From: Owenia fusiformis
Taxonomy: Eukaryota > Annelida > Polychaeta > Sabellida > Oweniidae
Length of the DNA stretch: 64,000 nucleotides
Assembly: GCA_903813345.2 (NCBI GenBank)
Contig: CAIIXF020000011.1
Coordinates: forward strand, 10,698,842 to 10,762,841
Direction: 5' to 3'
Positions 1 through 62,342 of the stretch are shown piece after piece. The notes beneath the pieces are model-generated. The model was not told where the DNA came from and made no database searches. It saw only the letters and a program-made list of their open reading frames with translations. How positions within the stretch are numbered: the first letter of the stretch is position 1; every line of letters starts with the position of its first letter. The translations under genes were made by a program, and so were the position numbers.

Positions 1-55
1 GTATGACTGAGAATAATAGTGAAAAGATAAAAGGAGCAACCTTTCAGAAAAATAC

Positions 56-244
56 CTTATTGTGGTTCATTTTACGAGAGTTTTTCTTCATGCGTTCCCG
101 ACAGAGTAGAACGACGCCAGTCCTGAAAACAAAGCATGTGCTGACAACCTCCATTCCCTTCTTGATCTTGCCAATGTTTTCATGTGCATTCATCCATTCT
201 ACATTACCATACATTTGCAGTTCTCCCACATTCAGATCTATGAT
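56..244 (-). CDS. TIAM1: TIAM-like GEF exon 19, start of C-terminal PH domain
   Basis: 189 nt, 63 codons, phase 0 at both ends. It encodes [19 protein letters not shown], then [20 protein letters not shown] and [11 protein letters not shown]. The order GDLL-x(n)-VEWLN-GKIKKGLE-CFVFK-VVFLC is that of the PHc domain of sif/TIAM. The donor is taken as AAG|GTATTT at 55, with a preceding Lys codon; it is not a strong match. The rest of the gene lies left of the window. Confidence 0.88.
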
Positions 245-3200: not shown

Positions 3201-6200
3201 TTAAAACATTTTCGCGTGTTTTGCTAAACATGGCAAGCATATATATGGTTATAGCTACCATATGAGGAGAGAGATGGTTTGGCAAGGAATATTCCTTTAA
3301 TTTATGTGACAAAGTGTCACTTTTAAAGATTTCATGAACTTCAAAATATTTTGACATACTTTGGATTTTAATAGACATGTAATAAATAGATTAGTCCTAA
3401 ACTTGAAGTCATTGTTGTTAACCTGGAAATTAAGGTATCTGTACAATCTCAAGCAAATTGATGGAATACTTATGGGGTACACATGTTTACATTTTATTGT
3501 ATGTTACCTGAGAGATGATTGTGCTCATCTGACTGTGGATTGGTAAGACTCTTCAGCTGTCGTAGAAGCAGGGGATACTTCAGTATTCTCTGTATGGGTT
3601 TGATCAGGTATGACTCTAGAGTTGCTGAATGCTGTTGTTTAGGATTACGAGCTCGTAGAAACTCTTTTAATGGAGTGTTATCATCTAAAACATAAGTACA
3701 ATAATTTTGACATTTAGTAACATAATCAATGTAGTTTTATAATCAATTGAAATGAGCTTGACAATCTTTTTTAGGTCATATATATTTGCCAGATCTTTGT
3801 ATTGAGGATAGTAAAAGTATGTCTTATTAATCCAAAACAATAGGTGATCTCTGTTGCAGGCTAGAGGATGAGTTGTCCAGTTGATGAGATGTCCAGGGGA
3901 TGAGTTGTCCAGTGGAAGATATGTCTAAGGTATGAGTTGTCCAGTTGATGAGATGTCCAGTTACCCCCCAGGCTGCCATTTCACAGTTAGGTCTAAACCA
4001 GGGAAGTGTAACTGACCTGGATTGAGAACCTTCTGGGCCTTGGAGTGGCTGGCACAGAATGAGCTATAAAGCTTGAAGTGGTTGGCATAGTACAGGAATG
4101 AACCTCCCAATGAGAACAAGATCCTCTGAAATATATAGAGTATGTAATATATAGAGTACTTACGGTAAGCCATAGTACTTAAAATGGAGAGTTCTTAATA
4201 TAGAGACTACCTCAAGTATAGAATATAAAGAGTACATGTACTTAAAATATTGAATAGATTTCATCTAAACATTCTGATCATGCTTACTATGACATGCCCA
4301 TGTACCTGCAACAATTGTAAACAGAATTCATTTTCCATTTAGTGGAGCAAATTACTCTTTTCTTTTACCTTATATCATTGTATACCATGTAACTGTCTAA
4401 ATGAATAGACGCAAATAAAGAATACATACATACATACAATACGAAATATTAATCAGAAAACAGCATCGCCAAGGCGTAGCAAATCTCAATGAACAGCCAT
4501 GGCTGCCATTTTTACAAAATCCCTCCACTACTTTTTCAAATTGTCATAGAATACTCCAGTAAAAACACGAAAAATAAATGAAAAAATTGCAATACTTATT
4601 AAACCTAGTGCAACGAATGCATATTGATGAGTTTAAAGACATATTAAAAATCTAGAAAAATCTAAGTAGTGGAAGACATGTAAAAATCACTATTTGTACC
4701 CCCTGGTCTTATTTTATGAGGGGGTACTGTGATAAGCATTTATATCTTCTGTTGGGTGCCTCCAATCACATTCAAATTTTCAGGGATTATGCATCCATAT
4801 ATAGTTAATTGTCATGAAAAGACTGATCTTGATTGGTCAATTGGTTACCATGGTAACATAATTTAATTGCAAAATATTGCAAATATTAAGGATAAGTAGA
4901 TACCGTTTCCGTACAAACAGATCGTAGTTTGTCAATTTTAATTTTTCAAAATGAACACAAAGTTGAGCGTAATACATATTGAAGGAGTTTACAACAAGAT
5001 AACATGATAAATAGGTTAATTGGATGGCATATTTGGCTCATGTTTGATAACTACTGTTCAATTTACCACAAAGTGGGCGTGGCACTTTTTGTTATTACAA
5101 TTCCAAATAATTTCATGTTGACAGAATCATATTTACAAGGGTCATTAATACATATGTAATTATCTGAAATGGTGAGTCCAAATATCTTTTGTCAATTGGT
5201 TGCCATAGTAACACAACATATTGTATGTGAATCGTGGGTAGAGGTCATTTCAGGCAATCCTTGTTAATCTTAATTGTTTATTACATTCATCCTTAAGAAC
5301 TGTTTTAGTGTATGATCTTTTTTAACAAATACAGGTTTGGATAATATTGATATGCGTTTGCTATGGTAACACAACTAATAATGCTGTTTCTTGAAATACT
5401 GCTCTGTTTGTTCGTCTGCCCGCCCATCTGTCTGAGCATTTCCTGACCTATTAATTAATCACAGATTAGTGTTATATGTGACAAAACGGTGATTCTTGAC
5501 ATCTTAGACTCAAGAAGATGTACCAACTTAGACCCTGTACGCTGTATCAATCTTAGATTATGGATATTCTACCCATTGTAGACTTTGGAGGATGTACCCA
5601 TTAAACACTAGAGTCTACAACCTCTAAGACTCTAGAGGCTGTACCATCTTATATCTATTTATTATACTCTGGATGTTGTACCATATTAGACTCTGTAGGC
5701 TGTATCAATTTTAAATTATAGAGGCTGGGTCATCTTAGACTCTTGGAATTGAAGGTTGTAGCCATTATAGAAGTAGATGTACCCTGCATTAAACTCCTGA
5801 GGCCATATTAGACTCTAATTGTTAATATTAGTCGTAGGCTATACCATTTTTAACTTTGGAGGCTGAACCATTTTAGGCTCTGAAGGATGTACCATCTTAG
5901 AATCTGGAAACGGGTCCTATGTTATATCGAGCGGCTGTACCATCTAAGGGTTGGAGGCTGTACATGTTAGACTCTTGGAGGCTGTACTTATCATAGGCTC
6001 TGAATGCTATAGCAATCAAATGATCTGAAGGATCTACCATCTTGGACTCTGGAGACTGAACCCATGTTATATCTGGAAGCTGTAACATCTTAGACTTATG
6101 GAGGCTGTACCATCTTAGACTCATGGAGGCTGTACCCATCCTAGGCTCTGAATGCTATAGCAATCATAGCCTCTGAAGCTGTATCATCTTAGACTCTGGA

Positions 6201-15200: not shown

Positions 15201-18200
15201 TACATTGTATGGGCACCTTGTACATTGAATGGCCAATCTGTACATTGTATGGCCATCCTGTCCTTGGATTATCACCCTATTCACTGTGGGATCAACTTAT
15301 ACATTGTATGGGCACCTTGTACATTGAATGGCCAATCTGTACATTGTATGGCCACCCTGTCCTTGGATTATCACCCTATTCACTGTGGGATCAACTTATA
15401 CATTGTATGGGCACCTTGTACATTGAATGGCCACTCTGTACATTGTATGGCCACCCTGTCCTTGAATTATCACCCTATTCACTGTAGGATCAACTTATAC
15501 ATTGTATGGGCACCTTGTACATTGAATGGCCACTCTGTACATTGTATGGCCACCCTGTCCTTGTATTATCACCCTATTCACTGTGGGATCAACTTATACA
15601 TTGTATGGGCACCTTGTGGACTGAGCCCTACCTGCTGTTGGAGGTAAGAAGACTTCTCTGGCACCAGGTAATTGTTCAGCCCTTGTAGCTTAAGACGTAT
15701 GAAATGGTCTCCAGGGTTGAGTTGTCGCTTGTTGCATGCAGCCTCCAGCACCTCTTGCATGGTCATGTTTTCCTGAGTTAGACCAACTATGACACTCTGC
15801 AATAAAACAACAATGCAATCGTCTTCAATCAAGTGATAAAGTTCAGCTAGGAAAGATTGTAAAAGTAGTTTAAGAACATTATTGTGATAGTATGATTAAG
15901 ACATGAATACAGAACTGTTTAAAAGGAACACTTACTTGATTATTTGGCAATTTGACTCTGATGAGATTATCATTGTATGTCATTGGATCTCCCCTGGGAC
16001 TTCCCAGCTCTTCTGGATTATCTACATTGTGCTTGGTGAAGTCAACCACTGCATTCTCATCAATATCTGACACCTTGTACACAGACCTGCAAACATACTA
16101 TGGCTATAGGTTGTTTCTTGACCAAAGATATTTGCTTTGCCCGTTTTGGAATATTATATTAATCTCTCCAATGACATCAAAAGGAAGGAAGTTGATCTCT
16201 TCAAGGAGAATGTGTTCTAATTTGTTCTACAGATAGTATACTATCCCTTTCTGATCATTCTTTTCCACCATGTTTTGCATTTTCAAGTGAAGCCCATAGG
16301 CAATATATTCACTTACCCTTGGGTTGGACTTAATGCTCCAGATGCCTTTTTCTTGCTCCTCAGGAGAGCATCCTGTTTTGTCACCTTTGACCCCTGACCT
16401 TTTCTTCCACTTTTCCCATATAAGGTCATAGACATGGGGGACCGGGCACAGACAAGAGCATGGAAAGATGTCACTGTGAACACTCCTAACCGTCCCAACA
16501 AACTCTTTGTTGCCTTGGAAACATTTGTGAGCAAGTTCTGAAACATTAAAAAGGGGAAATTAGTAGATTTTTGAAGCAATGCTGCTTAAATCAAATATAT
16601 TATACATGGGAAAGCTTCAGAAATAGGACTGTTCACGTCCACGAAAAACTGAACACATATTTTGTTTCCAGTAAACATTCTGGTATGGTGCTATCCTTCA
16701 AGTAAATAGAAGTAACTAGCATTGCTTCTACCAGCTAGAGTACCTTTGGATTTGGAAGCTCTGAGCCCTGCAATGATGCCATATAGCACCTAAGTCTGTA
16801 CTGCTCTATGTAGATTTTCTCCAGATTCTCCTCCCACTGGTTTATCTGCTTCACTATAGCAGCCTTACTCTTGGGGTCTGTCACCACAGTCAGTTGGAGA
16901 TCAGCCATCTTTTTCATCTTGATGTCCTGTATAATAAAATTCAATTCAATTTGATAATTATTTTTTTAACCAAAATTAAAATATCCATAACTGGTAAGAC
17001 CCTTCATGATAAATGCATTGTATTAACTTGTATTAATTATGCAAATGAGTACATTTACATCATGCATTTCTCAAATAGAATTGTATGGAGTTCAATATAT
17101 ATTTTTACATATTAAAATATTTAAATTGAGTTTACCCACCGAGCATATTCCATTATCAAGTTTCTGTATCTCTGAGCGCAATAGTTTCAATGTGTTATCC
17201 TTCCCATGCTGCCTTGCAAACAGTGACGCGCATGCGGAGTGTATACTCGTCACCCAGTTCTCCAGCTCTATCTGGGTTGGTGCCTACAATTACAATTTAA
17301 AAAAGTTTAATAACATTTCATATTGAAGAAGGATGAGCATTTGTCTAATTAAGCTAATTGTACATAAAGGCCTTCACACTATACTATTGTCATATGGCCA
17401 TCCAGGAACAAGTTATTCTAGAGCAAGCATGACTTTCATAACATAAAGAAGTAGAACCCTAGTGGAAACATCCATTCCATGAGCCTGCTACACAATTCTA
17501 AACATACCTGGAACAAGTAGGCATCTCCAAATGCTGTGCTCAGTGAGAATATATTGTCTCTCTTAGGGTGCTCAGGCACTGCCTGTGTAATACTGCCTTC
17601 TATCACTGCAAAGAGACACATGCATTTATAAATGGAAAGGTTTTCATGTTAAACTATTTGAATGTTCAGTGTATGAGAATATATTGTAGCTCATGTTGTT
17701 TTCTATGTGTTATGGCATTATCAATGATTCCTTGATGACTTACCCAGCATATGTCTTGGTGCAGTGTCTTCTGATAGAGAGCTCTGTTCATCACATGTAA
17801 AGAACAGCAATGTGGTTCCCTTCAAGCACACCCAGTACTTCTTCCAGCTCCTTTTAGAGGCCAACTCTACCTTTCTCTTCTTATGAATCAACCAGTTCTT
17901 CACATTTAACCACCTGTAAACAATACCATTAACATCACTTTATGAGTGAACAATATCATAGTGTCATCATATATACTTTGCACAAGATACCTATTCACCT
18001 ATTCCTCAGAATGGCTCAGATGGCGAAATATCTTTGCAAATAATTGGTGCACTATTGAATCAAAATTTGAATTTTGATGTGTCTTTAAAGGTTACAAATA
18101 TGTGTCATCCCACTCCTTTTTTCTCACTTTTATGTCATTTAATCATATATTAATAATATATCTACTGCAGCAAAGGAGGTATGACATACCCAGCTTTCCT

Positions 18201-21200
18201 AATGGCCCCACTCTGGCGCACAAATGAACCATGGGATTCAGAGACTGCTGTGTGAATGCTGCTATTACTGTCTCCCTCATCATCAGACACCTGGAAAACA
18301 AGACACATGTAGAATATTATTAGACACATGTAGGGCATATTGGACACATGTAGGGCATATCTGAAACATAGAGAGCTATATAGAGGACATATGAATATGT
18401 AGAATGTAAGGACACATAACAATGAATGATAGATACAATTGAAAACATATAAAAAAGTGTTTGACAGGTAACAATATGGTATTTTAACAAGAAGACCACT
18501 CTGATTGTTTTATGAATCATTTGTCATAGCACAATATCATCAATTAGAGATTATCTGCAGACCAGCTATGTAATTAAAGTGTTACAAAGTCAAGTAAGTC
18601 ACTATTATTTACAATTCATATGAAATACAAAGATGAAGCAAGATTTATTTTGATTGGAATATCTACAAAAATCAATATTTTCTGAAACAGGGCATCTAGT
18701 TTGGATCAAACTACCAATACTTTATGGGATAATCCCAGGGGAACCTAACCAGGGAAACATTAAAGCTAAAATCCCCAAAGCAGATTATATAATTATAATA
18801 ATTACTTGTCACTATGATAATTAGACACGAAGTAGTTCCAATAACCTCTAAAGTCTCCATTGTATAAAGACCAACATCAGCTTTCACCAATTATCAAATG
18901 ACTACACAATCCCAAAGTACTACATATTTGCAGTTCTATACATAACCACTTGAGAGGTGTCATAGAACTGTCAACATGGTCATTCATAATATCTGATCTA
19001 TTTTTCTGGTATTTTTATAGTAATTCAATGAAAATAGAATATTCTTTGACAATTCTGCAATATTTTGAATTTCACGCCATGCCCAAAAGACAGCTTGGCT
19101 ACTTTGGTGAATCAGTGAATATTCAACACTGCAGACATATAAAATATTATGAGGTGATCACTCATCAAGTTTTTACCCATAATAAAAAATAAATAAAAAA
19201 AATTGAATGAATACAGCTATCTGCAATTTGGTTGGTTCATAGATGACTCCTTTACGACTAGATGTTCTTACTATGCTACCCTAGGTGTGAAAGTAGGGTG
19301 TACACCAGGGCTAGGTAAGATGTACATAAAATATAGTTTCCATTTTAATAAAACAAACATTGAAAACTCTTTCAGTTATTTGAAATATCCTTGAAATGAA
19401 TCTCCTATGCTAGATCAATCAGATTGCAGATAGGTGTGTGTGACATGTTATGAGTTTATAAGTTATATGTCGTAAAGCATTCTTATAACTATGGTATATA
19501 TAACTTCATACTTACAACTGTATTCAGTTTGTTTTGCAGATTTTTCATTGCCTGAATGTCAATAATGATCCAGTTGTCATAAAAACAGATATAATCATAT
19601 ACTTTCCAAGAATAACTGTTATCATTTCTACCTCTACTTGCAAAAATACAAAATTGGCACTTTCAAAACTAACATTTAATGGCAGGAAAGATGTGTGTAC
19701 TTGGTGAAGATCGAGGTAACGTGGGCTACCACTCTGCCTACCACCTGAGCATGTAACAAACCACATGTTTTCAAATCACCTTTCTGGATTTAATATCATT
19801 TTTGAGACATGATATTGCGATTGTGTTCTATACCATATTTGATTGCTGGAATGGCAATTAACAGTACATAATAGACAACCTTTAATAAGCAAAATTTGAT
19901 GTCCTTTTCAAGTTGCATGATTTTGCTTCATCTGCAATTACTTGTAATAACTACATAGCCTCCAGGCCTCAGGGTTAATATTTGATTGGTTGAAAAAGCC
20001 AAGCCTTATCTAACTGACTTACTTTCTTCAGTTTACTTTTGATACGTTTAAAAACCTGAAAACAGCAAACATCACAGAAGAATATGTCTTAAAGGGTTTT
20101 AGCACCGTTATTAAATCTTTCCAGTGGCGGATCCAGGAACCAACAAGGGGGGGGGCCCAAATTGTTGGTCATAGAAAAAAATGAAAAGTGGGCCCAAATT
20201 TTGAAAATTTGAGGCCCATTTTCTTCAAAATTTGGCCTGAAATTAAAAAATAAGGCCTTAGAAGGCCTAGTAATGACCAAAAAGCCCCTTTTTTTAGTGC
20301 CTGAAGGCCTTTTTTGGCCCAAAATTTTTTGAGCCCAATTTTTGTTTTTTCTGGGCCCAACTTAGAGGGGGGGCCCTGGCCCCATGGGCCCCCCCCCCCC
20401 CCCCCCCCCCCCGGATCCGCCATTGCTTTCAATAGTTTGAAAAAGCTGGTTAAATCATATCAGGATTGATTGATAGCCATGTTTTGCAGAAATTTTTTTT
20501 TAGAAACTTTTCTATTCCTAAATTAAGTTGTGACTCCTTAGTGAAAAACCAAAACCAATGTAATATGTTCTGTCCCTCTTACCTCAGATGATGTGAGACC
20601 CCGTCTTCTGCCACTAGAGCTGCCTGTACCCTCAGACCCATAGGGATGTAGCAGGTCACTCTGTTTGTCACTTATGCTACTGCTTCCCCCACTGCTACTG
20701 GCTGGGTGACTTGCCTTGGTCATCTTACCCAGCCCTGGCAGACCTACAATTATAAACAGTAATAGGTATTAAGGAGTATAGCAGGTCATTTTGTCACTTA
20801 TGCTACTGCTTCCCCCACTGCTACTGGCTGGGTGACTTGCCTTGGTCATCTTACCCAGCCCTGGCAGACCTACAATTATAAACAGTAATAGGTATTAAGG
20901 AGTATAGCAGGTCATTTTGTCACTTATGCTACTGCTTCCCCCACTGCTACTGGCTGGGTGCCTTGCCTTGGTCATATTACCCAGCCCTGGCAGACCTACA
21001 ATTATAAACAGTAATAGGTATTAAGAAGTATAGCAGGTCATTTTGTCACTTATGCTACTGCTTCTCCCACTGCTACTGGCTGGGTGACTTGCCTTGGTCA
21101 CCTTACCCAGCCCTGGCAGACCTACAATTATAAACAGTAATAGGTATTAAGGAGTATAGCAGGTCATTTTGTCACTTATGCTACTGCTTCCCCCACTGCT

Positions 21201-24200
21201 ACTGGCTGGGTGCCTTGCCTTGGTCATATTACCCAGCCCTGGCAGACCTACAATTATAAACAGTAATAGGTATTAAGGAGTATAGCAGGTCATTTTGTCA
21301 CTTATGCTACTGCTTCTCCCACTGCTACTGGCTGGGTGACTTGCCTTGGTCATCTTACCCAGCCCTGGCAGACCTACAATAATAAACAGTAATAGGTATT
21401 AAGGAGTATAGCAGGTCATTTTGTCACTTATGCTACTGCTTCCCCCACTGCTACTGGCTGGGTGACTTGCCTTGGTCATCTTACCCAGCCCTGGCAGACC
21501 TACAATTATAAACAGTAATAGGTATTAAGGAGTATAGCAGGTCATTTTGTCACTTATGCTACTGCTTCCCCCACTGCTACTGGCTGGGTGCCTTGCCTTG
21601 GTCATATTACCCAGCCCTGGCAGACCTACAATTATAAACAGTAATAGGTATTAAGGAGTATAGCAGGTCATTTTGTCACTTATGCTACTGCTTCTCCCAC
21701 TGCTACTGGCTGGGTGACTTGCCTTAGTCATCTTACCCAGCCCTGGCAGACCTACAATTATAAACAGTAATAGGTATTAAGGAGTATAGCAGGTCATTTT
21801 GTCACTTATGCTACTGCTTCCCCCACTGCTACTGGCTGGGTGACTTGCCTTGGTCATCTTACCCAGCCCTGGCAGACCTACAATTATAAACAACAATACG
21901 TATTAAGGAGTATAGCAAAACCTTACACCCTAAATAAATGATGATCTTACATGTACAGAATCAGTGTCCAATTCCCCCTCCTCCCTACCCATACCATTCA
22001 TTTTGCTCAATCCAAACCAACAAGACCATTTGAGACTTTAGTCTTACGAAGGTTAGCACATTATGTATTGAGGGGTACATCAAATCAATAGCAATTTGCT
22101 CACTCATGTCAATCAATGACATTGACATCACAGACATACTATCAATCATATACAAATAAGCAAATAAATTAGAATGAATTCTCTTGGTAGAAATGAAATA
22201 TGAAACCATTTGAAAGACAGATGAGAACAAGTCTGCACAAAAAACAGCATACTGTAGCCATGAGAAGTGGTATGAGAATATCAAACTTTAAAAAAGAAGG
22301 GAGCAAATGGAATATATATGTACTGCTCAAATAAACTTCAAACATATTGCAATAATCATACTTGTAGCCAGCTTTTTGTAACACCCTCAGTACCCCCCCC
22401 CCCATCCCGCTTTTCCCCCCTCTGAACCAACTCCCTTTGCACTGTAAAGGGATCTAAAGGGGCTAATTGGGCACAAATTTTGAAAATTCATAGCCCATTT
22501 ATTGATAAGGCCTAAAATTAAAAAATAAGGCCCAAAAGCCCAAGTAATGCCCAAAAAGCCCTACTAATGAGGCCCTACAAAATCTTTTGATAGATTATTT
22601 CGTAACTCTAGGTTGTCAAAAGGTCAAAATTATCAATGCAATACATTTCTCAATATAAACAAAGCTACATATAGGTCCGTTGCTGCCATCTTTTGCCAAT
22701 CAACACTCTCATTGCAATTATACATTTCTTAATAGCAAAGTTCCATGTCTTTTCACTGTTAATATGCAAAACCTGACTTTAGATGCTGATATAGAGGTAT
22801 AGTTCAGTAATTAACAAACACCATGGGGGTAATATATATCAGAATATTAGACAATATTAATGCATATGATATCATTCATATGGAATATTATATTCTCATT
22901 GCTGCTTTCTGCCTGAATTACACATCCTGAAATGAAAATATCTGAATTCATATAAAAAATGAGCTGCTGATTCCTGTAAGCATACAATTCATCATGAAAA
23001 CTGCAAAATGTTCGAGAGTGATGGCAATCTGAAAATCTCTTAATCAAAACCCCTAATTCCCCCTCATCAGAAGAGGCACATTTCCCAATACAAATACTTT
23101 TTTCAATTCAATCTTGTATATTCCTCACACATCGTAATGCTAATTTAGCATAAATGAAATGAAGAAGAGCAGATATAGTTAGATGTAACGTCTTCCTCAC
23201 ACATCGTAATGCTAATTTAGCATAAATGAAATGAAGAAGAGCAGATATAGTTAGATGTAACGTCTTTTTTTCTTAATCCTAGGATGTAACTGAACCTTAG
23301 TATGTGTCAATTTTGCTTCTTTTATAGTCTGGCGCACAGCTACAAGAACATCTGATAACTAAGGTAAAGAGTCAAGTCTGGTAATTTGAGGCTGTCAGAA
23401 AACCTCTCTTATATAAGGGCACTAGTCTCACATAAGTAAATCTATGTAATCTAATCATTTATGCCTTTGCCTTTACTGTTATCAATATTATTTTTAAGCA
23501 TTTAATATATTTTTGTGAAATAATGAATATTGTTAGTACCTCAGTTGAAATACTCGATTTTGATTGGTCAACGAGCGATGGATAATTTTAACTGTACACC
23601 GCGCATGCATTGCCGGTGAATAATATTCCCAGCATTCCACTAAAATGACGTCATTATCAGACGATAAAATGGCCGCCGCTAGCACTAGCCGTTTCAAAAA
23701 TGTTGAAGATGAGGATATTATTAGTCTCTTAGAGAGTAAAGACAGTCAAATTACGAAGAAAAATCTTAGTGGACTTCGCCCAGGAGAGTAATTTGACTCC
23801 ATTAAGTGATGTAAGGAATATTGTGTTTGAAATACAACATGAACGTCTCGAGGGTCTGGATCCAACTTCAAGTCAACTTCAAGGGTCAGAAAAATCTAAG
23901 ATATTCTTCGGACTAACAAAACAATTATAGACCTCTCCATTCGGTTTACTGTCAAAATTATATCCCTCGACTGTAAACCTCGACCTACGGTCTCGGTTTA
24001 CAGTCTCGGGATATAATTTTGACAGTAAACCTCTGGAGAGGTCAATAATTGTATACAGTAAATGATTATTCAAGAGAGTACAAAATCTGATTAATTCCAA
24101 TTAATTTCAAAAGATCATATGATCATAATAATATAACCACTTCAATGACACATTATATATGTGTGGGGATCCTGGAAAATACTATAACATCTACAGTAGT

Positions 24201-39200: not shown

Positions 39201-40660
39201 GAAAAATAAAATAATTAATAGAGAAGTACTTCACTTTATACATGTTTAGTGCCTCCAGTTATATTGAATGCAAAATAATAATTCTGGTCAACCTTATTTC
39301 TCCTAATTTCTATCATTTTTTCAAGATAGAAGTATATTCATTTTGCCTTTTTCTAATCACTTTATTGAATATAAGAATGAAACAAGACCAAAATTACATT
39401 CCATCAAATGTATATGATTTTAATTACAAATCCAATGTATAGATGTCAGCACATACCTGGTGGTAGAGTAGAAGATCTCAAACTGTCTGCAGATTTTGTA
39501 GATCCTGTTCCAGAGTAAGTCATGCCACCTATACCACTATCAGGGTAACTATCACGGACACACTGGTTCCGCAAATGCAGCTCATACTCTATGTTTTCCC
39601 GATTTTGTTTGTTAACCAAGCGTGGATCCTGCTGGACATTCTGAATATAGGTGTCCTCCTGGTGAAACCTTGGGCTCAGCCTTTTAAGTGGTTCTTGAAT
39701 GTGATCATCAGGTATAATTGGCTTATTCAACATTTTATGTATTTCTACATTGTCATAATAATCACCCTCAACATCACAAGCACCATCCTCCTCATCTGTG
39801 TCATTGTTATCACTACTTATATCAGATGGGGGAATATTTTGTTTCATTGGGGTATTCGTTGTATTTGTGTTATTAATATTGTTAAAGCTGAATACCTGCT
39901 GTTGTGTCCCCTTCCTCGGGGATGCTGGTAAAGATCGTAACATCCGCTCAAGGGTTCCACTATCAAAACTTGCAACGCAAACTGGGTTTTTTGGTGTAGT
40001 TGGTGTGAGGGGTTCAGGTGGAAGGGGCCAATCGGGGGAGCTTGAAGAATGACTATTATGGGGTGGTGTTAAGGGAGATATGTCATGAGACGCACCACTG
40101 TTTGGATCTGAACCTGGTAAAAGTAAACCACCTTTATTTGATGATTGTCTTTGTTGTTGATACACATTAGAAGGGGTCTCTGACTGTTTGGAAGGGCTCC
40201 TTATAATATTACCATTACTATTCTGATGAGCACTGCTCTGTTCATGATCACGAGCCTCAATAGATGCAGGTTTGAAATGTTCCCCTTCTTGAATTGTTTT
40301 ACTGCCATAATCACTATGAGGTCTGTACATGCGCAGTGAATTACTTCCACTGTCATAACGGTCATATTTAGTTGCCCTTCGTGGGGCTCCTCCATAACTA
40401 ACATTATCATACACTGAGTTGTTAGATTGGGGCTTAATGATTTCCCCTTGGGGTCCAAATATGGTTCTCGCATCAGGAATATGCCTGCTGCGCCCTCTAG
40501 GGAGGGTTGCAACAGCTTCCACTGTGCTGGGTCTAAATCCTCCTTCATCATCATCATCTAGACTGTTATTGGTCGAAAGATCGTCTGGTGTCGAAAGGGC
40601 TCTTCTGGGTGTCCCTACAGGGGATGTTGGGGCAGAGATACCTCTCTTGCTACGTAACCT
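56..40660 (-). CDS. TIAM1: TIAM/Still life family Rac GEF, partial (19 exons)
   Basis: Spliced gene. Exons in transcription order: 40660-39457, 20743-20583, 18290-18190, 17913-17744, 17605-17508, 17283-17140, 16926-16744, 16537-16317, 16086-15936, 15796-15632, 14307-14127, 12431-12165, 10620-10538, 10133-9975, 9788-9594, 4125-4017, 3684-3508, 2058-1928, 244-56. Every junction is GT-AG and all phases agree, giving 4089 nt = 1363 codons with no stop. Approximate residues of this partial product: disordered 1-485, PHn 485-600, coiled-coil extension 600-720, Ras-binding 795-866, PDZ 870-965, DH 1080-1290, start of PHc from 1300. This domain order is diagnostic for TIAM1/TIAM2/Drosophila sif, which load GTP on Rac at membranes and in neurons at growth cones and synapses. 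The three DH contact residues known in TIAM1 (Glu1047, Lys1195, Asn1232) are present. Initiator exon and 3' end are not in view. One-to-one orthology with TIAM1 rather than TIAM2 cannot be claimed for an invertebrate. Confidence 0.95.
245..411. other. intron sequence, nothing recognised
   Basis: AT-rich intron between the last exon in view and the mobile element that begins near 412. I see no open frame or repeat here. Confidence 0.6.
412..1850. mobile_element. Helentron/HINE ('pearl')-like element with eight 162-bp core repeats
   Basis: Eight tandem units with a period of 162 bp (anchor GGACGGAAAATCC at about 477, 639, 801, 963, 1125, 1287, 1449, 1611). The core is bounded on the left by CAATATCGTACCTAAAACAC and on the right by a GC-rich CCCGCC microsatellite and then by ATCGTACCT-ttatt-AGGTACGAT-like hairpin sequence. 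The left ATCGTACCT and the right AGGTACGAT also form a sub-terminal inverted repeat. Core repeats, microsatellite and 3' hairpin are the layout of non-autonomous Helentrons and oyster 'pearl' elements. A second copy with the same ends is at 12671-13393. Confidence 0.7.
1851..1927. other. short spacer between mobile element and splice donor
   Basis: Only 77 bp separate the hairpin end of the element at 412-1850 from the exon 18 donor. The minus-strand reading frame of exon 18 runs open through this spacer into the element. Confidence 0.6.
1928..2058 (-). CDS. TIAM1: TIAM-like GEF exon 18, end of DH domain
   Basis: 131 nt between acceptor gtttacag and a GTGGGT donor (the same non-standard donor as exon 6). 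It encodes [19 protein letters not shown] and [19 protein letters not shown], ending SLSHSK. The Asn of HINEMQK corresponds to Asn1232 of TIAM1, which contacts Rac. The frame stays open past the donor into the neighbouring mobile element, but the splice to 244 restores the family sequence. Confidence 0.95.
2330..2545. promoter_or_regulatory. cluster of CACGTG and ACGTCA motifs within an inverted repeat
   Basis: CACGTG palindromes lie at 2346, 2497 and 2519, and a full TGACGTCA at 2466, with further ACGTCA at about 2356 and 2535. ATTGGCCCCCACGTGAT near 2338 recurs inverted as ATCACGTGGGGGCCAAT near 2517. This could be a bHLH/CREB-binding intronic element or the core of an old foldback element; motifs are seen, function is inferred. 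Confidence 0.4.
2691..3299. mobile_element. foldback element with ~210-bp imperfect inverted arms
   Basis: The left arm starts TAAAGGAATATTCCTTGCC and runs to about 2900; the right arm ends GGCAAGGAATATTCCTTTA at 3299 and begins near 3095. The arms match over about 210 bp when one is reverse-complemented (for example GGAAGTGATGTCATC against GATGACATCACTTCC), separated by a ~190-bp loop with no ORF. The terminal AAGGAATATTCCTT is itself a palindrome. Confidence 0.75.
3508..3684 (-). CDS. TIAM1: TIAM-like GEF exon 17, DH domain catalytic helices
   Basis: 177 nt between acceptor gttttag and donor GTAACA. It encodes [20 protein letters not shown] then [20 protein letters not shown]. The Lys of YLIKPIQR is the equivalent of Lys1195 of TIAM1, needed for nucleotide exchange. 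Confidence 0.96.
3870..3962. repeat. short minisatellite, GATGAGTTGTCCAGT type
   Basis: Alternating GATGAGTTGTCCAG and GATGAGATGTCCAG units repeat four to five times just past exon 16's donor in the intron. Confidence 0.6.
4017..4125 (-). CDS. TIAM1: TIAM-like GEF exon 16, DH domain
   Basis: 109 nt between acceptor tatatttcag and donor GTCAGT. It encodes [20 protein letters not shown] and [16 protein letters not shown], near-identical to the [26 protein letters not shown] segment of TIAM1. It sits 5.5 kb from the previous exon, the intron carrying a large foldback element. Confidence 0.96.
4250..4440 (+). mobile_element. possible 3' tail of a LINE/SINE
   Basis: Sequence ending GACGCAAATAAAGAATACATA followed by a CATACATACATACA simple repeat resembles the microsatellite-tailed 3' end of a retroposon. 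No coding remnant is visible. A similar CAGTAAATAAAGAACAAATGAATG stretch occurs near 9290. Confidence 0.3.
4553..7468. mobile_element. giant foldback element, ~670-700-bp inverted arms
   Basis: The left arm starts ACTCCAGTAAAA (4553) and the right arm ends TTTTACTGGAGT (7468). Matching stretches include ACCATGGTAACA-type sequence at 4850 against TGCTATGGTAACC at 7155, and GGCGTGGCACTTTT at 5078 against AAAAGTGCCACGCC at 6913. The arms extend to about 5225 and 6760. The loop is filled by the degenerate repeat at 5500-6690. No transposase frame is present, so it is non-autonomous. Confidence 0.7.
5500..6690. repeat. degenerate tandem repeat, GAGGCTGTACCATCTTAGACTC type
   Basis: About forty imperfect units of 25-35 bp. 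Between 5900 and 6430 a higher-order unit of roughly 120 bp (with CATGTTATATCTGGAGGCTG and CTCTGAATGCTATAGCAATC) recurs three to four times. It forms the loop of the foldback element. Confidence 0.75.
7560..7745. repeat. dispersed repeat fragment (CTCCACTATTTTTCCAGTTAT family)
   Basis: Resembles segments at 4490-4552, 51640-52345 and 52920-53300: a CTCCACTA-TTTTTCCAGTT core with nearby ACACACATAAAAAT and AAAATGGCCAC blocks. No ORF. Confidence 0.45.
7746..8758. other. intron, mostly unassigned; contains a dispersed repeat at ~8340-8520
   Basis: No exon was recognised. The stretch AGAATGAAATATTTGTTTTA followed by CTGTCAAGCTCACTATCCT at 8437-8485 recurs at 47978-48025, so at least 150 bp belongs to a dispersed repeat family. 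Confidence 0.5.
8759..8910. repeat. 28-bp minisatellite, five copies
   Basis: Unit GAGGCAAGTGAGCTATTTGA plus ATTATATT, 28 bp, five nearly identical copies in tandem within the intron. Identity among copies suggests recent expansion. Confidence 0.9.
8911..9593. other. intron, nothing recognised
   Basis: AT-rich intron downstream of exon 15's donor. No frame, RNA gene or clear repeat is seen apart from a weak retroposon-tail-like stretch near 9290. Confidence 0.5.
9594..9788 (-). CDS. TIAM1: TIAM-like GEF exon 15, DH domain
   Basis: 195 nt, 65 codons, phase 0 at both ends, acceptor gttgcag and donor GTGAGT. It encodes [20 protein letters not shown], then [20 protein letters not shown] and [12 protein letters not shown]. 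It matches DLNCLMERYLKPLQKETFL of TIAM1 almost residue for residue. Confidence 0.96.
9975..10133 (-). CDS. TIAM1: TIAM-like GEF exon 14, start of DH domain
   Basis: 159 nt, 53 codons, phase 0 at both ends, donor GTACAA. It encodes a linker ([16 protein letters not shown]) and the first DH helix [20 protein letters not shown]. The Glu of DTERQYV corresponds to Glu1047 of TIAM1, a Rac-contact residue of conserved region 1. Confidence 0.94.
10134..10537. other. intron, nothing recognised
   Basis: Intron between exons 14 and 13; no further signal seen. Confidence 0.6.
10538..10620 (-). CDS. TIAM1: TIAM-like GEF exon 13, linker
   Basis: 83 nt between acceptor tgttttcag and donor GTAACAC, phases 1 to 0. 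It encodes [20 protein letters not shown] then KHIDTLLK. It is too short and divergent to assign on its own; the call rests on splice sites and on the phase being the one required between exons 12 and 14. Confidence 0.75.
10930..11530. repeat. diverged copy of the 162-bp core repeat, four units
   Basis: Four units with a period of 162-163 bp (anchors near 10987, 11149, 11312, 11474) share GGAAAATCCAAAATGGC and ACCCAGAATGCCAAAAA with the elements at 412 and 12671, but they differ at many positions (GTAGACAAGACTTTACAGAC). The terminal hairpin was not found, so this is an older relic. Confidence 0.65.
11531..12164. other. intron with a short AACAAAG(C/T)TATG tandem
   Basis: At about 11538-11580 the 12-bp motif ATGAACAAAGYT repeats three times. 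The remainder shows nothing I can identify. Confidence 0.45.
12165..12431 (-). CDS. TIAM1: TIAM-like GEF exon 12, PDZ domain (second half) and linker
   Basis: 267 nt between acceptor tctatccag and donor GTAAGT. It encodes [20 protein letters not shown] and [11 protein letters not shown], the classic G(L/I)xxGDEILxING PDZ core, followed by a linker with a CPPPPTQS proline run and [14 protein letters not shown]. The linker leads to the DH domain. Confidence 0.94.
12671..13393. mobile_element. second Helentron/HINE-like element, three 162-bp cores
   Basis: It shares its left end (AACAAGGCACAG, CGTGAACAA, ATCGTACCTAAAACACAGCA) and right end (GTCAAGCTGACTACAATATC, then hairpin ATCGTACCT-tttgtt-AGGTACGAT) with the element at 412-1850, but has three core anchors (12854, 13016, 13178) instead of eight. 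The shared ends define the element's limits and show that the number of cores varies between insertions. Confidence 0.72.
13394..14126. other. intron, nothing recognised
   Basis: AT-rich intron between the mobile element and exon 11. The open plus-strand frames here have no splice or family support. Confidence 0.5.
14127..14307 (-). CDS. TIAM1: TIAM-like GEF exon 11, PDZ domain (first half)
   Basis: 181 nt between acceptor tctcttgcag and donor GTAGGG. It encodes [20 protein letters not shown] and [20 protein letters not shown] is the carboxylate-binding loop position of the PDZ domain (GLGF-like; FSLSS region in TIAM1). An internal GAG|GTATGT close to the exon start is not used, because using it would remove the PDZ domain. 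Confidence 0.9.
14510..15616. repeat. 97-99-bp minisatellite, ~11 units, filling an intron
   Basis: Unit with TACATTGAATGGCCACTCTG, ACACTGTCCTTGAATTATCA and CCCTATTCACTGTGGGATCA, 97-99 bp, about eleven copies. Sub-types differ in CATGGTATGGTCAC versus CATTGTATGGCCAC and are clustered, with the left half of one type and the right half of the other. It occupies over 80% of the intron 14308-15631 and stops about 15 bp from exon 10's donor. Confidence 0.92.
15632..15796 (-). CDS. TIAM1: TIAM-like GEF exon 10, Ras-binding domain
   Basis: 165 nt, 55 codons, phase 0 at both ends. It encodes [20 protein letters not shown] followed by [19 protein letters not shown], the remaining strands and helix of the Ras-binding domain, and ends YLQQQ at a GTAGGG donor. 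The 97-99-bp minisatellite starts only about 15 bp beyond this donor. Confidence 0.93.
15936..16086 (-). CDS. TIAM1: TIAM-like GEF exon 9, linker and first strand of Ras-binding domain
   Basis: 151 nt between acceptor tttgcag and donor GTAAGT. It encodes [19 protein letters not shown], a divergent linker, and ends with [13 protein letters not shown]. That last strand looks like the beta1 of a Raf-type Ras-binding domain (IRVxLPNxQ). Confidence 0.88.
16317..16537 (-). CDS. TIAM1: TIAM-like GEF exon 8, end of PHn-CC-Ex
   Basis: 221 nt between acceptor gtttcag and donor GTAAGTG; ends with two nucleotides of a Gly codon. It encodes [20 protein letters not shown] then [13 protein letters not shown], matching the GRLGIFSVSSFHALVAART segment of TIAM1, followed by a basic, poorly conserved linker ([13 protein letters not shown]). 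Confidence 0.94.
16744..16926 (-). CDS. TIAM1: TIAM-like GEF exon 7, coiled-coil extension
   Basis: 183 nt, 61 codons, phase 0 at both ends, acceptor ttatacag and donor GTACTC. It encodes [19 protein letters not shown] and [19 protein letters not shown]. The ending is almost identical to the CYLASLQGGELPNPK of TIAM1. This part packs on the PH domain and binds Par3, IRSp53 and other scaffolds in vertebrates (established for the family). Confidence 0.95.
17140..17283 (-). CDS. TIAM1: TIAM-like GEF exon 6, PHn C-terminal helix and coiled coil
   Basis: 144 nt, 48 codons, phase 0 at both ends. It encodes [19 protein letters not shown], the C-terminal PH helix with its invariant Trp, then the amphipathic stretch [16 protein letters not shown] that starts the coiled-coil extension. 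Phase demands the less usual donor TCG|GTGGGT rather than the GTAAAC four bases further on, which would break the frame with the next exon. Confidence 0.92.
17508..17605 (-). CDS. TIAM1: TIAM-like GEF exon 5, N-terminal PH domain (middle)
   Basis: 98 nt between acceptor ctctttgcag and donor GTATGT. It encodes [19 protein letters not shown] and [20 protein letters not shown] is nearly identical to AVPEHPKKD in TIAM1 and to the fly protein, making this one of the firmest family markers in the gene. Confidence 0.95.
17744..17913 (-). CDS. TIAM1: TIAM-like GEF exon 4, N-terminal PH domain (first part)
   Basis: 170 nt between acceptor tttacag and a GTAAGT donor. It encodes [16 protein letters not shown] and [19 protein letters not shown], the beta1-beta4 strands of the PHn domain. 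The basic KKRK and KRSWKKYW stretches are those expected to bind phosphoinositides. The match to TIAM1 (VKNFLVHKKNKKVE, WKHYWVSLKG) is clear by eye. Confidence 0.95.
18190..18290 (-). CDS. TIAM1: TIAM-like GEF exon 3
   Basis: 101 nt from acceptor tgttttccag to a GTATGT donor, phase 0 in and phase 2 out. It encodes [19 protein letters not shown] followed by [10 protein letters not shown]. The last residues match the RKAG motif that opens the N-terminal PH domain in TIAM1. Confidence 0.9.
18295..18375. repeat. short tandem, GACACATGTAGGGCATAT
   Basis: Two to three copies of GGACACATGTAGGGCATAT beside the acceptor of exon 3. Confidence 0.55.
18376..20088. other. intron, nothing recognised
   Basis: Intron between exons 2 and 3. 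Open frames (for example near 18950-19400) lack codon bias, splice signals or recognisable family motifs. Confidence 0.5.
20125..20422. mobile_element. ~300-bp MITE with TGGCGGATCC terminal inverted repeat
   Basis: Begins TGGCGGATCCAGG and ends GGATCCGCCA after a run of about 30 C. The interior has GGCCCAAATTTTGAAAATTT and AATTAAAAAATAAGGCC blocks. Decayed relatives lie at 22385-22600 and 30760-30900. It has no ORF of its own; the homopolymer C run may be misassembled. Confidence 0.75.
20583..20743 (-). CDS. TIAM1: TIAM-like GEF exon 2
   Basis: 161 nt; two nucleotides complete the Gly codon of the preceding exon, then 53 codons end in Glu before a GTAAGAGG donor. It encodes a Gly/Ser-rich linker beginning [19 protein letters not shown] and ending GLTSSE. 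An in-frame ATG (MTKASHP) seven codons into the exon could start a shorter isoform (inference). The acceptor-side 93 bp of this exon, with the acceptor and about 38 bp of intron, is the founder of the adjacent 126-bp tandem array at 20781-21917. Confidence 0.85.
20651..21917. repeat. 126-bp tandem array derived from exon 2 and its splice acceptor
   Basis: Nine units of exactly 126 bp start at 20781, 20907, 21033, 21159, 21285, 21411, 21537, 21663 and 21789; a founder unit (4 bp longer) lies at 20651-20780 inside exon 2. Each unit carries the first 89 bp of the exon, the acceptor (ATTATAAATT/GTAG on the minus strand) and about 37 bp of intron. Three sub-types can be told apart (gtgac/catctt, gtgcc/catatt, tctccc/gtgac) and run A-B-C-B-C-A-B-C-A, so expansion also happened in multi-unit blocks. 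A 4-bp deletion shifts the frame relative to the true exon. Confidence 0.93.
21918..22384. other. intron, nothing recognised
   Basis: AT-rich intron upstream of the duplicated array; nothing further seen. Confidence 0.5.
22385..22600. mobile_element. decayed copy of the TGGCGGATCC MITE
   Basis: A C-run followed by GGCACAAATTTTGAAAATTC, CTAAAATTAAAAAATAAGGC and AATGCCCAAAAAGCCC parallels the interior of the element at 20125-20422. Ends are not preserved. Confidence 0.55.
23121..23264. repeat. 72-bp direct tandem duplication
   Basis: Two identical 72-bp copies beginning TTCCTCACACATCGTAATGC, at 23121 and 23193. Absence of mismatches indicates a recent event or an assembly artefact. Confidence 0.9.
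23561..23653 (+). promoter_or_regulatory. CCAAT/CRE promoter-like patch
   Basis: TGATTGGTCA (inverted CCAAT) at 23561, CpG-containing ACCGCGCATGCATTGCCGGT, and a perfect TGACGTCA at 23646 whose TGA overlaps the ATG of the downstream small ORF. Composition differs from the AT-rich surroundings. Confidence 0.4.
23645..23791 (+). pseudogene. fragment resembling the N-terminus of a Crypton/DUF3504-type recombinase protein
   Basis: 48-codon ORF starting [14 protein letters not shown] and continuing [29 protein letters not shown], then stop. 'RF-x-x-(V)-E-x-E-(L)-L-x-x-KD-S-x-x-TKK' resembles the opening of the multicopy Crypton-derived (tyrosine recombinase, KCTD1/ZMYM/QRICH1-related) proteins of invertebrates. 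The catalytic domain is absent; the frame stops where the family would continue. A solitary first exon of a longer gene is the alternative. Confidence 0.4.
23919..24051. repeat. long near-perfect hairpin (stem ~64 bp)
   Basis: Left arm ACAATTATAGACCTCTCC, GGTTTACTGTCAAAATTATA, TCCCTCGACTGTAAACC; right arm the reverse complement with only a few mismatches, the turn at about CCTACGGT (23988). It could be the terminus of the same mobile unit as the small ORF at 23645 or a small palindromic MITE. If transcribed, the RNA would form a long stem. Confidence 0.85.
24061..27960. other. long intron segment, nothing recognised
   Basis: Within the 18.7-kb intron of the GEF. Open frames such as 27067-27465 (plus) have unbiased composition, no splice signals and no family likeness. 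No RNA gene found. Confidence 0.5.
27965..28260. promoter_or_regulatory. candidate internal promoter of the GEF (GC box, CCAAT, CRE)
   Basis: A CpG-richer island in AT-rich intron. CCCCGCCCCC (GC box) at 28018, ACCAATCAG at 28071, ACGTCA at 28130, CTGATTGGCTCGG near 28184, and TATATA near 28150. On the minus strand the order CCAAT, CRE-like, CCAAT, GC box faces exon 2 at 20743, which has an in-frame ATG. Motifs are seen; promoter activity is inferred. Confidence 0.4.
28261..29284. other. intron segment, nothing recognised
   Basis: AT-rich sequence with no supported feature. Confidence 0.5.
29285..29490. promoter_or_regulatory. second CpG/CCAAT-rich patch in the long intron
   Basis: GCGGCGCC, TTCTGATTGGGTTCG (inverted CCAAT), TTCACGTGATTT (E-box) and GGGGCGGAG (GC box) lie within 200 bp of otherwise AT-rich DNA. 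A 66-codon plus frame crosses it (including [16 protein letters not shown], faintly like the extracellular part of DEG/ENaC channels), but there is no splice support, so I treat it as regulatory or as a mobile-element remnant. Confidence 0.3.
29575..29900. repeat. minisatellite, TGATGTGATGGCCCCTGAATTGTAC
   Basis: About thirteen imperfect units of 23-27 bp alternate between GATGGCCCCTGAATTGTACT and GATGCCAACTGAATTGTACT forms. Confidence 0.8.
29901..30759. other. intron segment, nothing recognised
   Basis: No coding, RNA or repeat signal that I can support. Confidence 0.5.
30760..30900. mobile_element. ancient relic of the TGGCGGATCC MITE interior
   Basis: CTGAAAATTTGAGCC, CAGGCCCATTTTCTCCAAAA and GGGCCTAAAATCTC echo the interior of 20125-20422. 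Heavily diverged. Confidence 0.35.
30901..36352. other. long intron segment, nothing recognised
   Basis: 5.4 kb of AT-rich intron. A TTTGTTACAGATGCCA motif followed by CCAACAAATACCAGACACCA at 33592-33645 recurs near 38015 and 42370 and marks a small dispersed repeat. Nothing else is supported. Confidence 0.5.
36361..36904. mobile_element. 544-bp DNA-transposon MITE with 21-bp perfect TIR
   Basis: TIR starting CTATCACACCAAACTAGTTC at 36361-36381 is repeated inverted at 36884-36904; flanking CTTACCC and GGGTAAG extend the symmetry. The interior is CpG-richer than the host and contains repeated ACGTTCT-AAAAC-GGTTT blocks. The minus-strand frames inside (36405-36919) are by-products of the composition and resemble no transposase. 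Confidence 0.85.
37385..38110. repeat. degenerate repeat, AGGTCAAATCTCAAATCTAA/AGTCAGATTTGAA type
   Basis: Five to six irregular units of roughly 110-160 bp containing GACCTTTTTTAACC, TTGAGAAGGTCATTGAAGGT, AGTCAGATTTGAACTTCTGA and GAACTCGTAGATGATTTTGA. Confidence 0.75.
38317..38496. mobile_element. 180-bp full-length palindromic foldback (MITE)
   Basis: Begins GCTTGTATTCGCGAATGCAA and ends with its reverse complement; the symmetry continues inwards (GGCTAC, ATTAACCT, CATTTAAATATGAAT) to a centre near 38405. A TCGCGA palindrome lies in each terminus. Confidence 0.85.
38497..39456. other. intron next to the large exon, nothing recognised
   Basis: About 960 bp of AT-rich intron downstream of the large exon's donor. 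Confidence 0.5.
39457..40660 (-). CDS. TIAM1: TIAM-like GEF, large exon with disordered N-terminal region
   Basis: Open for 401 codons plus 1 nt. It starts after an acceptor reading tttgcag and ends at a GTATGT donor. The product is low-complexity, rich in Ser, Pro, Asn and Asp, with no recognisable folded domain. Visible motifs include [18 protein letters not shown] near the start, [13 protein letters not shown] in the middle, an acidic [13 protein letters not shown] stretch and [13 protein letters not shown] at the end. Repeated Ser-Pro/Thr-Pro pairs suggest proline-directed phosphorylation (inference). The frame is open upstream of the acceptor for a few codons but has no ATG there, so at least one more 5' exon is expected. 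The final single nucleotide joins in phase with the exon ending at 20743. Confidence 0.88.
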
Positions 40661-41565
40661 CTGCAAATACAATGGATAACAAATATATACTATGGGAAAC
40701 CAATATCAGGGTGTACATTGTACAAGAATATCACAAGTTCACAGGAACACTGGCTCCTATTCATCTCCTGAAAGGCAAAATTATCACTTTTATCATCCAG
40801 GGTGATTTTGGAAAGTTGAAATAATATTAACAACAACACATTCAACAGCTGTAATTACTTTGCTGAAATTGCATAGGTATAAAATATGATCATGAGGTAG
40901 AACAATCTCCAGTTACAATCCTGTCATTACTGAAGAAGCGTCTCACAACACTAAGGAGACACTGAATTAGTCAGCTATGTTCATCCAGGCCAAACCACAA
41001 CACTGTGGCTGTGTCATTAGACTGAGCTCAATATATCACCAACTTCAAGTCTAACAATGGTCATTAACTAAATGAAATCTCATGGACATTTTTAATAAAT
41101 CCTGCCATCTTTTGCTTCATTAGCAAATAGCTTACATTGGAATTGGTTAGACTGATTATGTTGCAGGTTGTAGTTAATCAATATTAGCAATAAGTTCAAC
41201 CTGTCCTCCATGAATATGTTGCTACCAGCTACCTGTTACAGACCTGATGACAACAGGCAACCTATGACATCAGCAATCTAGACAATACATCCTAGCTGCT
41301 TTGATGTAACAAAATATAGTTGGGTTCATTAGAAGTCAGTTGAAATAAGATTCTGGAAACAGCCTCCATACTAATTCTAATTGTAATTAGAGCACACAAT
41401 TGCTTGGCCAGAAGGGGAGGTCTCAACTAATATGGAAAGAAGAGTTGTAACAGTGGGAGATACTGCACAAGTTCTATACCTTCTAAATTCAAAAATAGAA
41501 CAAATAAATATTTTTTGTCATAATAAACCTGAATTAATGACTTGGATGCCATAATTGGATAGCAC
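40661..41565. other. upstream of the large exon, nothing recognised
   Basis: Probable intron of the GEF. I looked on the minus strand for the expected PH/WH1-like N-terminal exons of sif and for an initiator ATG and found none. Confidence 0.45.
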
Positions 41566-48772: not shown

Positions 48773-49119
48773 ATCCTATAAGTAACACCTACCTCATTTC
48801 AGTGAATACCTGTTGAACAAGATATTACAAGATTTATATTGGACTTGTTGACATCACAGGTTGATGAACTTAGTTATCTAAACAAAGACAGCCTCCAAAA
48901 AAATTTAATTTGGATTAGTTTGATGTTGGATGTGATAACTTTCTTTGATAGCGTTTGTATTCATTAATGTCAATTTGAGACTCATCAAATATTTATTTCT
49001 TGCAACTTAAGATGCTCTGATATTATATCTGATCTTATGTTATTAATGGATTTAAGCCCAAGACTCAATGCATTGTTTGCTGAATCATACCAAGAATGTG
49101 TAGTTTCCACGACGAGTGA

Positions 49120-61640: not shown

Positions 61641-61804
61641 TACTCATATGTCATTGAAATGAGGTATCTATGTACCCTATGACTTAAATTGCTGAATTAT
61701 TTCAGATAATAGGTGTCATTTGACAAAGTTGTACAGCAAGAATGACAACAATCAATCGGTGACAATTACTACAGAACTGCACAACCATATATGTGAAATA
61801 CAGG

Positions 61805-62138
61805 ATGCTAAGATTGCCTCCAGTGATGCATCAATGCATCATTCTCCTAATCTTAGCCCCCACCACCATCGCATTCAAGAACAAGAACAACCAAATCAAG
61901 ACTGTGTATCGGAAAGATGGTGATATCACAATAGGTGCAATATTTCCAATCCACCTAAGCACACCTGATCGCCAATGCAGTGATAAATTGCTTGTGTTTG
62001 GAAGAGGGGCAGGCGCTATTGAGTTTGTTGAGGCTATGGAGTTTGTTATCAATAAAATCAACAGAAATGACTCCATTCTACCAAATGTGACCCTGGGATT
62101 GGTCGTCCTTGATGATTGTTTTTCACCCTTTTCTACAT
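61805..62138 (+). CDS. metabotropic-glutamate-receptor-like class C GPCR, exon 1
   Basis: ATG at 61805 is the first Met after an in-frame stop at 61760; a second Met at 61826 would give a shorter leader. The product opens with a signal peptide (MLRLPPVMHQCIILLILAPT, then TIAFK) and enters the Venus-flytrap domain: DGDITIGAIFPIHLS, CSDKLLVFGRGAGAIEFVEA, MEFVINKINRND and LVVLDDCFSPFST. IGAIFPIH and LDDCFSP are typical of metabotropic glutamate receptors. It ends after ACA T at a GTAAGT donor, phase 1. The tetrad before EAM reads AIEF where glutamate-binding members have (I)QR. Confidence 0.9.
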
Positions 62139-62342
62139 GTAAGTGTGCCTGTGTGTATTGTTATTCCTAGAGCTAACATTTAAAACAATAATAGAGCATG
62201 CTACATTTTAGTTAATGGGTTCATTATAAGAATTGACAAAGGAATAAAAAATAACAAGTTATACATCATTCTTTGATTGTTCAGATGGCATTCAATTATG
62301 CATGACCCAAGCAGCCCAACATGTTCATATGTCTGCTTTCAG
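62139..62342 (+). other. intron of the class C GPCR gene
   Basis: 204 bp, donor T|GTAAGTGTG, acceptor ctgctttcag|AC, phase 1. Splitting FST|YQALQ restores the family motif CFSPFSTYQALQIGR. Confidence 0.9.

Follow-up and report, generated by a model that had tools for sequence, protein, structure and literature searches.

Ten Copies of One Intron/Exon Boundary in Tandem in a Predicted TIAM-Type Rac Exchange Factor Gene

Anatomy of the Array

The window, a 64-kb stretch of contig CAIIXF020000011.1, carries on its minus strand a gene that, judged by its predicted domains, is a TIAM-type Rac exchange factor. One exon of this gene (here the true exon, or 'exon 2') is directly preceded in transcription by nine 126-bp units (decoys), each repeating the start of the exon together with its acceptor. 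A string search of the window for TTGTAG/GTCTGCCAGGGCTGG, where the slash marks the splice site, gave ten occurrences, all on the minus strand and in steps of exactly 126 bp. The first exon bases of the nine decoys are 21877, 21751, 21625, 21499, 21373, 21247, 21121, 20995, and 20869, and the tenth copy is the true exon with its first base at 20743. The 15-nt core GTCTGCCAGGGCTGG was found nowhere outside the array in the 64 kb. Tandem Repeats Finder (TRF) placed the array at 20664-21917 with a period of 126, 10.0 copies, 97% matches, and a score of 2396, and the window is without N bases. The ten-copy intron/exon boundary repeat is real beyond doubt, and the claim of the initial annotation that nine 126-bp units with exon start and acceptor lie directly upstream of the true exon agrees with both searches.

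In each unit the intron contributes 40 nt, beginning with TGCTA and ending with TAG, and the exon-derived remainder is 86 nt long, against 90 nt in the true exon. The initial annotation had recognized the exon start and the complete acceptor in the units but had put the intron part at about 37 bp. Units differ from the consensus at 0–3 of 126 positions, and the first unit at 5; the upstream flank of the first unit differs at 5 of 42 positions, three of them within the 40-nt shared intron. Over its first 80 nt, the true exon shows no difference from the array consensus. In the 42 nt upstream of the acceptor, six of the nine decoys are identical to the true copy, and in the first 80 nt downstream each of the nine shows 0–2 differences from the true exon. 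A change of CAGAG to A (net loss of 4 nt) distinguishes all nine decoys from the true exon. A donor-like hexamer follows the core at +15; it is GTAAGA in five of the nine decoys, GTAATA in three, and GTAAGG in one (21121), and the true exon likewise has GTAAGA there. The first two hexamers had been described before, and the list is now extended by the GTAAGG decoy and by the site of the true exon itself.

Host Gene

Twenty exons were placed by hand from open frames, partly through likeness to human TIAM1. The exons with predicted domains are collinear in the order PH, CC-Ex, RBD, DH, and C-terminal PH, with Pfam E-values of 2.6e-05 for PH, 2.5e-29 for Tiam_CC_Ex, 8.2e-07 for RBD, 1e-09 and 1.9e-12 for RhoGEF, and 4.5e-15 for PH_Tiam1. 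The CC-Ex exon matches TIAM2 (3a8p, E 1.9e-23), one exon matches the first PH domain of TIAM1, and three match the DH/RhoGEF part. With the Pfam domains and the TIAM1 and TIAM2 chains in agreement, the earlier identification as a Rac exchange factor gene is upheld and narrowed to the TIAM type. Among the 11 exons or exon-bearing frames searched there were seven clear matches, one weak match (PDZ), and three without any; the large upstream exon, the exon at 18290, and the exon 14128-14307 have no Pfam match of their own. The weak match, 12157-12492 between RBD and DH, reached 0.00093 with PDZ_6 and 0.0083 with PDZ, both under Pfam's cut-off, and its Protein Data Bank matches are to harmonin (0.0035 and 0.0046), not to TIAM.

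Phase 1 continues without a stop from the large exon (39457) into the true exon (20743), and in the hand-made model an intron of 18,713 nt separates the two. The limits given earlier for this part of the gene (39457, 20743-20583, and 18290) coincide with those of the model. 'Exon 2' is a label only, within a model that begins at the large exon (acceptor 40660) and goes straight from it to the true exon. The positions of the main features are collected in Table 1.

After the array exon and before the TIAM exon that comes next lie two candidate in-frame micro-exons of 33 and 36 nt. Both are lysine-rich and have similar endings in KL, and they may be alternative micro-exons that arose as a pair by an old duplication.

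Table 1. Predicted features of the TIAM-type gene and of the boundary array in the window.
Feature	Positions	Strand	Basis or remark
Large upstream exon of 1204 nt, phase 1 at its 3' end, CAG/GTATGT	39457..40660	-	Open frame, phase, splice sites
Nine 126-bp decoy units, abutting the true exon in the 18.7-kb intron	20744..21917	-	Unit boundaries arbitrary by register
First decoy 15-nt core (5'-most in transcription)	21863..21877	-	
Last decoy 15-nt core; acceptor 287 nt from the true donor	20855..20869	-	
True exon ('exon 2') of 161 nt, entered in phase 1 and left in phase 0, donor GAG/GTAAGA	20583..20743	-	
15-nt core GTCTGCCAGGGCTGG of the true exon, then GTAAGA donor-like site as in five of nine decoys	20729..20743	-	
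Candidate 33-nt micro-exon, phase 0	20023..20055	-	Sequence only
Candidate 36-nt micro-exon, phase 0	19516..19551	-	Sequence only
Next exon (VSDDEGDSN...GAIRKA), phase 0 in	18190..18290	-	
Exon of the TIAM CC-Ex domain, by which the gene is assigned to TIAM	16744..16926	-	TIAM2 3a8p, Pfam Tiam_CC_Ex
RhoGEF (DH) domain exon	3508..3684	-	TIAM1 1foe, E 1.2e-20; Pfam
TIAM C-terminal PH domain exon (start)	48..244	-	PH_Tiam1 4.5e-15

Splice-Site Scores

The matrix used for scoring splice sites was derived from 19 donors and 20 acceptors of this gene, which were placed by hand and include those of the two candidate micro-exons; the scores are rough. Eight of the ten acceptor copies, the true one included, score 8.84, and the other two 9.57 and 10.08. 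Decoy acceptors thus equal the true acceptor in seven of nine cases and exceed it in two, which bears out the earlier statement that nine near-identical decoys are met before the real site. The value of 8.84 is above that of 13 of the 19 other acceptors of the gene. At +15, the donor-like site scores 8.47 as GTAAGA (five of nine decoys and the true exon), 9.24 as GTAAGG (one of nine), and 4.30 as GTAATA (three of nine), where the 19 donors of the gene span 0.10–11.28. From a decoy donor to the next acceptor there are 111 nt in all nine neighbouring pairs. Each neighbouring pair of copies is thus, by these predicted signals, a complete potential intron. Branch-point-like sites (TNAY) were listed.

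Origin and Homogenization

The junction of the units lies within a 5-bp microhomology, TGCTA, present in both the intron and the exon, as the intron flank AAGGTTTTGCTATACTCC and the true exon GTGACCTGCTACATCCC show when set against the unit junction TGACCTGCTATACTCC. A segment reaching from 40 nt in the intron to about 90 nt in the exon was duplicated. The nine decoys probably descend from one altered copy, because the CAGAG to A change is common to all nine, and this copy would have been amplified to nine units, partly as blocks. When the units are sorted into three types, A, B, and C, defined post hoc after the data had been seen, their order is A C B A C B C B A, followed by the true exon as A. 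C is followed by B in three of three cases (p = 0.008 with ten units shuffled, 0.012 with the nine decoys). Growth of the array partly by multi-unit blocks is therefore probable, since every C unit precedes a B unit. The middle of the array is homogeneous and its outer edge diverged, a pattern that comes from one haplotype and is not a history. Unequal exchange would keep the array homogeneous together with the first 80 nt of the true exon.

Variants of the decoy exon parts are of five kinds, four non-synonymous and one synonymous, too few for proof. The mostly non-synonymous variants and the frame-changing loss of 4 nt are as expected if the decoys are untranslated.

Chance, Source, and Selection

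TRF rows were merged by hand to 23 loci, which cover 16% of the window, and nine loci of at least 100 bp lie within the gene span. Under uniform placement of these hand-merged loci against 39 annotatable exon edges, at least one array unit (one unit for each array) fell over an annotated edge in 55% of 20,000 trials, and at least one whole array in 95%. That some array spans an exon edge here is unsurprising by chance.

The idea that the unit stems from a dispersed repeat or a transposon was rejected, as the core is confined to the array and, of the 39 annotated exon edges compared with the minus strand of the window as ungapped 50-mers with at most 14 mismatches, only the acceptor 20743 had further copies. 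Selection on the 15-nt core was likewise rejected. There are seven variable positions in 126 and none of them is in the core, for which a hand calculation gives a chance of about 0.4, with the 5 differences of the first unit and the 2 of the true exon omitted; invariance of the core in ten of ten copies is therefore not evidence of selection. The case for selection against the decoy donors, suggested by two of the seven variable positions falling in the donor hexamer, is too weak to be retained (p about 0.04 by hand calculation, post hoc).

Strong acceptor-donor pairs 3–60 nt apart number ten on the minus strand and none on the plus strand. Seven of the ten are in the array (six decoys and the true exon); of the three outside it, one is the 33-nt candidate micro-exon and one lies inside a TIAM exon. 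First-order Markov sequence has 0–5 such pairs per 64 kb (mean 1.7 in ten runs). Micro-exon-like pairs outside the array are at about chance level, and those inside are one event copied.

Comparison with Known Boundary Repeats

The first description of the repeats called mirages is said to be that of Canestro et al. in 2002. In lancelets they are tandem repeats that span exon-intron boundaries, and their edge units are described as exempt from homogenization (PMC3087553). Adh3 data and globin RT-PCR were taken in the cited part of that report to suggest that regular splicing is unaffected. Further mirages are given for PGBD5 and, as cited, TnC, where undisturbed splicing was deduced without RNA over the repeats (PMC3902484).

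The array agrees with these cases in several points. Its unit spans a boundary next to the authentic one, the last copy being the true exon; splice signals are predicted in the repeats (ten of ten acceptors at 8.84 or above, donors at +15 from 4.30 to 9.24); and the interior is homogenized (0–3 differences) while the outer edge is exempt (5 in the first unit). Lancelet mirages as described likewise have a homogenized middle, an exempt edge, and several copies (six and three in two haplotypes). They differ, in the same description, in their identity of 81–100%, against nine decoys of 126 bp with 0–5 differences per 126 positions here. The host gene, TIAM, and the donor-like site that lies in phase 15 nt inside each unit further set the present array apart from the described cases. 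In its anatomy as read from sequence, the array is a mirage, that is, another example of a boundary repeat of an already described kind.

In the potato RdRp gene, one boundary duplication activated a cryptic GTAAG donor and created a new intron, with 106 RNA-seq reads in the cited part of the report (PMC4974935). The features given for potato are a cryptic GTAAG of the upstream exon used as the donor and an inherited branch site, tract, and acceptor. The present array is alike in that, in nine neighbouring pairs, the exon part of one copy has a donor-like site and the copy after it brings a complete acceptor. It differs from the potato case as described in that one duplication with RNA-seq support stands there against nine extra copies known from sequence here. 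Given the potato case, the idea of used micro-exons is possible and unproven.

For the model of intron gain by tandem genomic duplication, Rogers 1989 and Hellsten 2011 are said to be the references. In the model as outlined in the cited parts of PMC3443670, PMC3629103, and PMC2891723, duplicated exon sequence supplies the splice sites, and an intron gain in fission yeast involved several 24-nt copies (PMC3629103). The standard form of the model, as outlined there, duplicates an exonic AGGT, whereas here a real acceptor is duplicated. In human genes of segmental duplications, minisatellites at boundaries are described as able to create alternative splicing and new introns, and the number of repeats can vary among the transcripts of a single locus (PMC2812944). 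Those cases differ from the array in that they concern paralogues with 30-bp units, four repeats on average, and up to 39 copies in one family; among the cases examined in the cited part of PMC2812944, there is no series of complete near-identical acceptors. In the open-licence literature searched, neither this many complete acceptors nor a TIAM case was found.

Interpretation of the Array

The array is probably, though not with great confidence, a neutral minisatellite that was seeded across the TIAM intron/exon boundary and is mostly spliced out whole. Most transcripts would join 39457 to 20743 and so discard the array with the 18.7-kb intron. The true acceptor would be singled out by the exon body past nt 80 and by the donor 161 nt away (exon definition), since the decoys share its near surroundings and only downstream information could mark it. 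Low-level use of decoys would yield mostly stop-containing mRNA and occasionally an in-frame GLPGL insertion, and the array would be a neutral passenger with a small splicing cost. That decoys are passed over is a reading drawn from precedent and anatomy, and the lancelet reports of regular splicing would favour it.

Several points weigh against neutrality and removal of the array as a whole. The decoy acceptors and all nine +15 donors score within the gene's own range, and the 111-nt 'introns' between units are little shorter than the shortest introns of the gene (138 and 139 nt). In potato, one such duplication, as far as described, gave a new intron that is used. The large exon and the next exon, which are the neighbours of the array exon, have no database match of their own, and the placement test depends on its assumptions of uniform placement, edge number, and hand-merged loci.

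It is unlikely, though worth weighing first among the alternatives, that the decoys are often used with the true donor or the next donor and that the resulting stop-containing mRNAs are degraded, so that copy number would act as a brake on TIAM output. Each of the nine decoy acceptors, when read through to the true donor, leads to a stop 33 codons past the junction. A decoy acceptor combined with the donor of the next unit likewise makes an exon of 141 nt that carries a stop at nt 98 in nine of nine cases, and 141 nt falls within the exon size range of the gene. Acceptors as strong as the true one or stronger would also suit such a brake. A strong brake would, on the other hand, be expected to be selected against, yet nine units have grown, and the lancelet cases are reported to splice normally.

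The initial annotation proposed that each decoy could be spliced as a phase-preserving 15-nt micro-exon that adds GLPGL, and that copy number could then vary the protein or tune splicing. In the present gene model, (GLPGL)n would be added to the linker between the N-terminal part and the PH-CC-Ex part. We regard this as improbable. Short introns favour recognition across the intron, for which a long exon is unnecessary, and this counts in its favour; 15-nt exons are sterically awkward for exon definition, which counts against it. The frame arithmetic held: chains of 15-nt exons computed for n = 0, 1, 3, and 9 stay in frame and free of stops, and each exon adds GLPGL. The donor scores also fall inside the span of the gene's own donors, and the potato intron is a precedent with a cryptic GTAAG (PMC4974935, as far as described). 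Left unmentioned in that proposal were three stop-yielding uses of the same sites, namely read-through to the true donor, the 141-nt exon, and the +15 site of the true exon, whose use shifts the frame. With the +15 donor of the true exon, each of the three candidate exons that come next is read out of frame and into stops, and the signal must therefore be ignored in at least that copy. Further against micro-exons, invariance of the core does not point to selection, three of nine decoys have a weaker donor, and lancelet mirages are reported without disturbance of splicing (PMC3087553).

Quite doubtful is a device dependent on copy number, in which the first decoy would be the point of entry, the 111-nt introns would be removed serially, the length of (GLPGL)n would follow the repeat number of the haplotype, and faulty pairings would give mRNA with stops. 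An assembly artefact, with the copy number or the whole array erroneous, is highly improbable: near-identical 126-bp units in tandem are easily mis-assembled, and the published BflGb6 mirage seemed aberrantly assembled in a genome draft, yet the units here carry distinct variants in block order, which simple duplication by an assembler does not make, and the window is free of N bases and has many other long arrays.

As a neutral passenger or otherwise, ten near-identical 3' splice sites in a row are a natural test of splice-site choice. If only the last acceptor is used, the information that marks it as real must lie further downstream. How the array is spliced could tell exon definition and intron definition apart within a single gene: 15-nt exons joined in a chain, if true, would point to intron definition, and skipping of the array or 141-nt poison exons would point to exon definition. 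The array also suggests that the coding exon start takes part in homogenization of the repeat, by which decoy variants (K to N, S to R, and G to R) could reach the protein. Mirages extend to another lineage if the host is other than a lancelet.

Other Features of the Window

Three further arrays end close to TIAM exon edges and leave the edges themselves excluded (14514-15617, 18301-18369, and 40667-40706, ending within 15, 11, and 7 nt, respectively); a rough hand estimate gives about one such array as expected, against the three seen. Arrays with a 162-bp period and similar units occupy three sites in TIAM introns (458-1761, 10934-11536, and 12807-13328), and by their similarity this family is dispersed, which the 126-bp unit is not. 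The stretch 20121-20425, in the intron that directly follows the array exon, has a long G run between inverted ends GGCGGATCC and GGATCCGCC and looks like a small terminal-inverted-repeat element.

The whole window has a G+C content of 34.5% and a CpG observed/expected ratio of 0.32, and the low CpG would be in keeping with heavy methylation in an animal genome. At 49111-50776, some 50 units of 33 bp leave a plus-strand stop-to-stop frame of 608 codons (SDIKTSDIKTE...) and long minus-strand frames too; this repeat is probably without coding function. A possible class C receptor exon lies on the plus strand at 61763-62170, with a weak ANF_receptor match under Pfam's cut-off.

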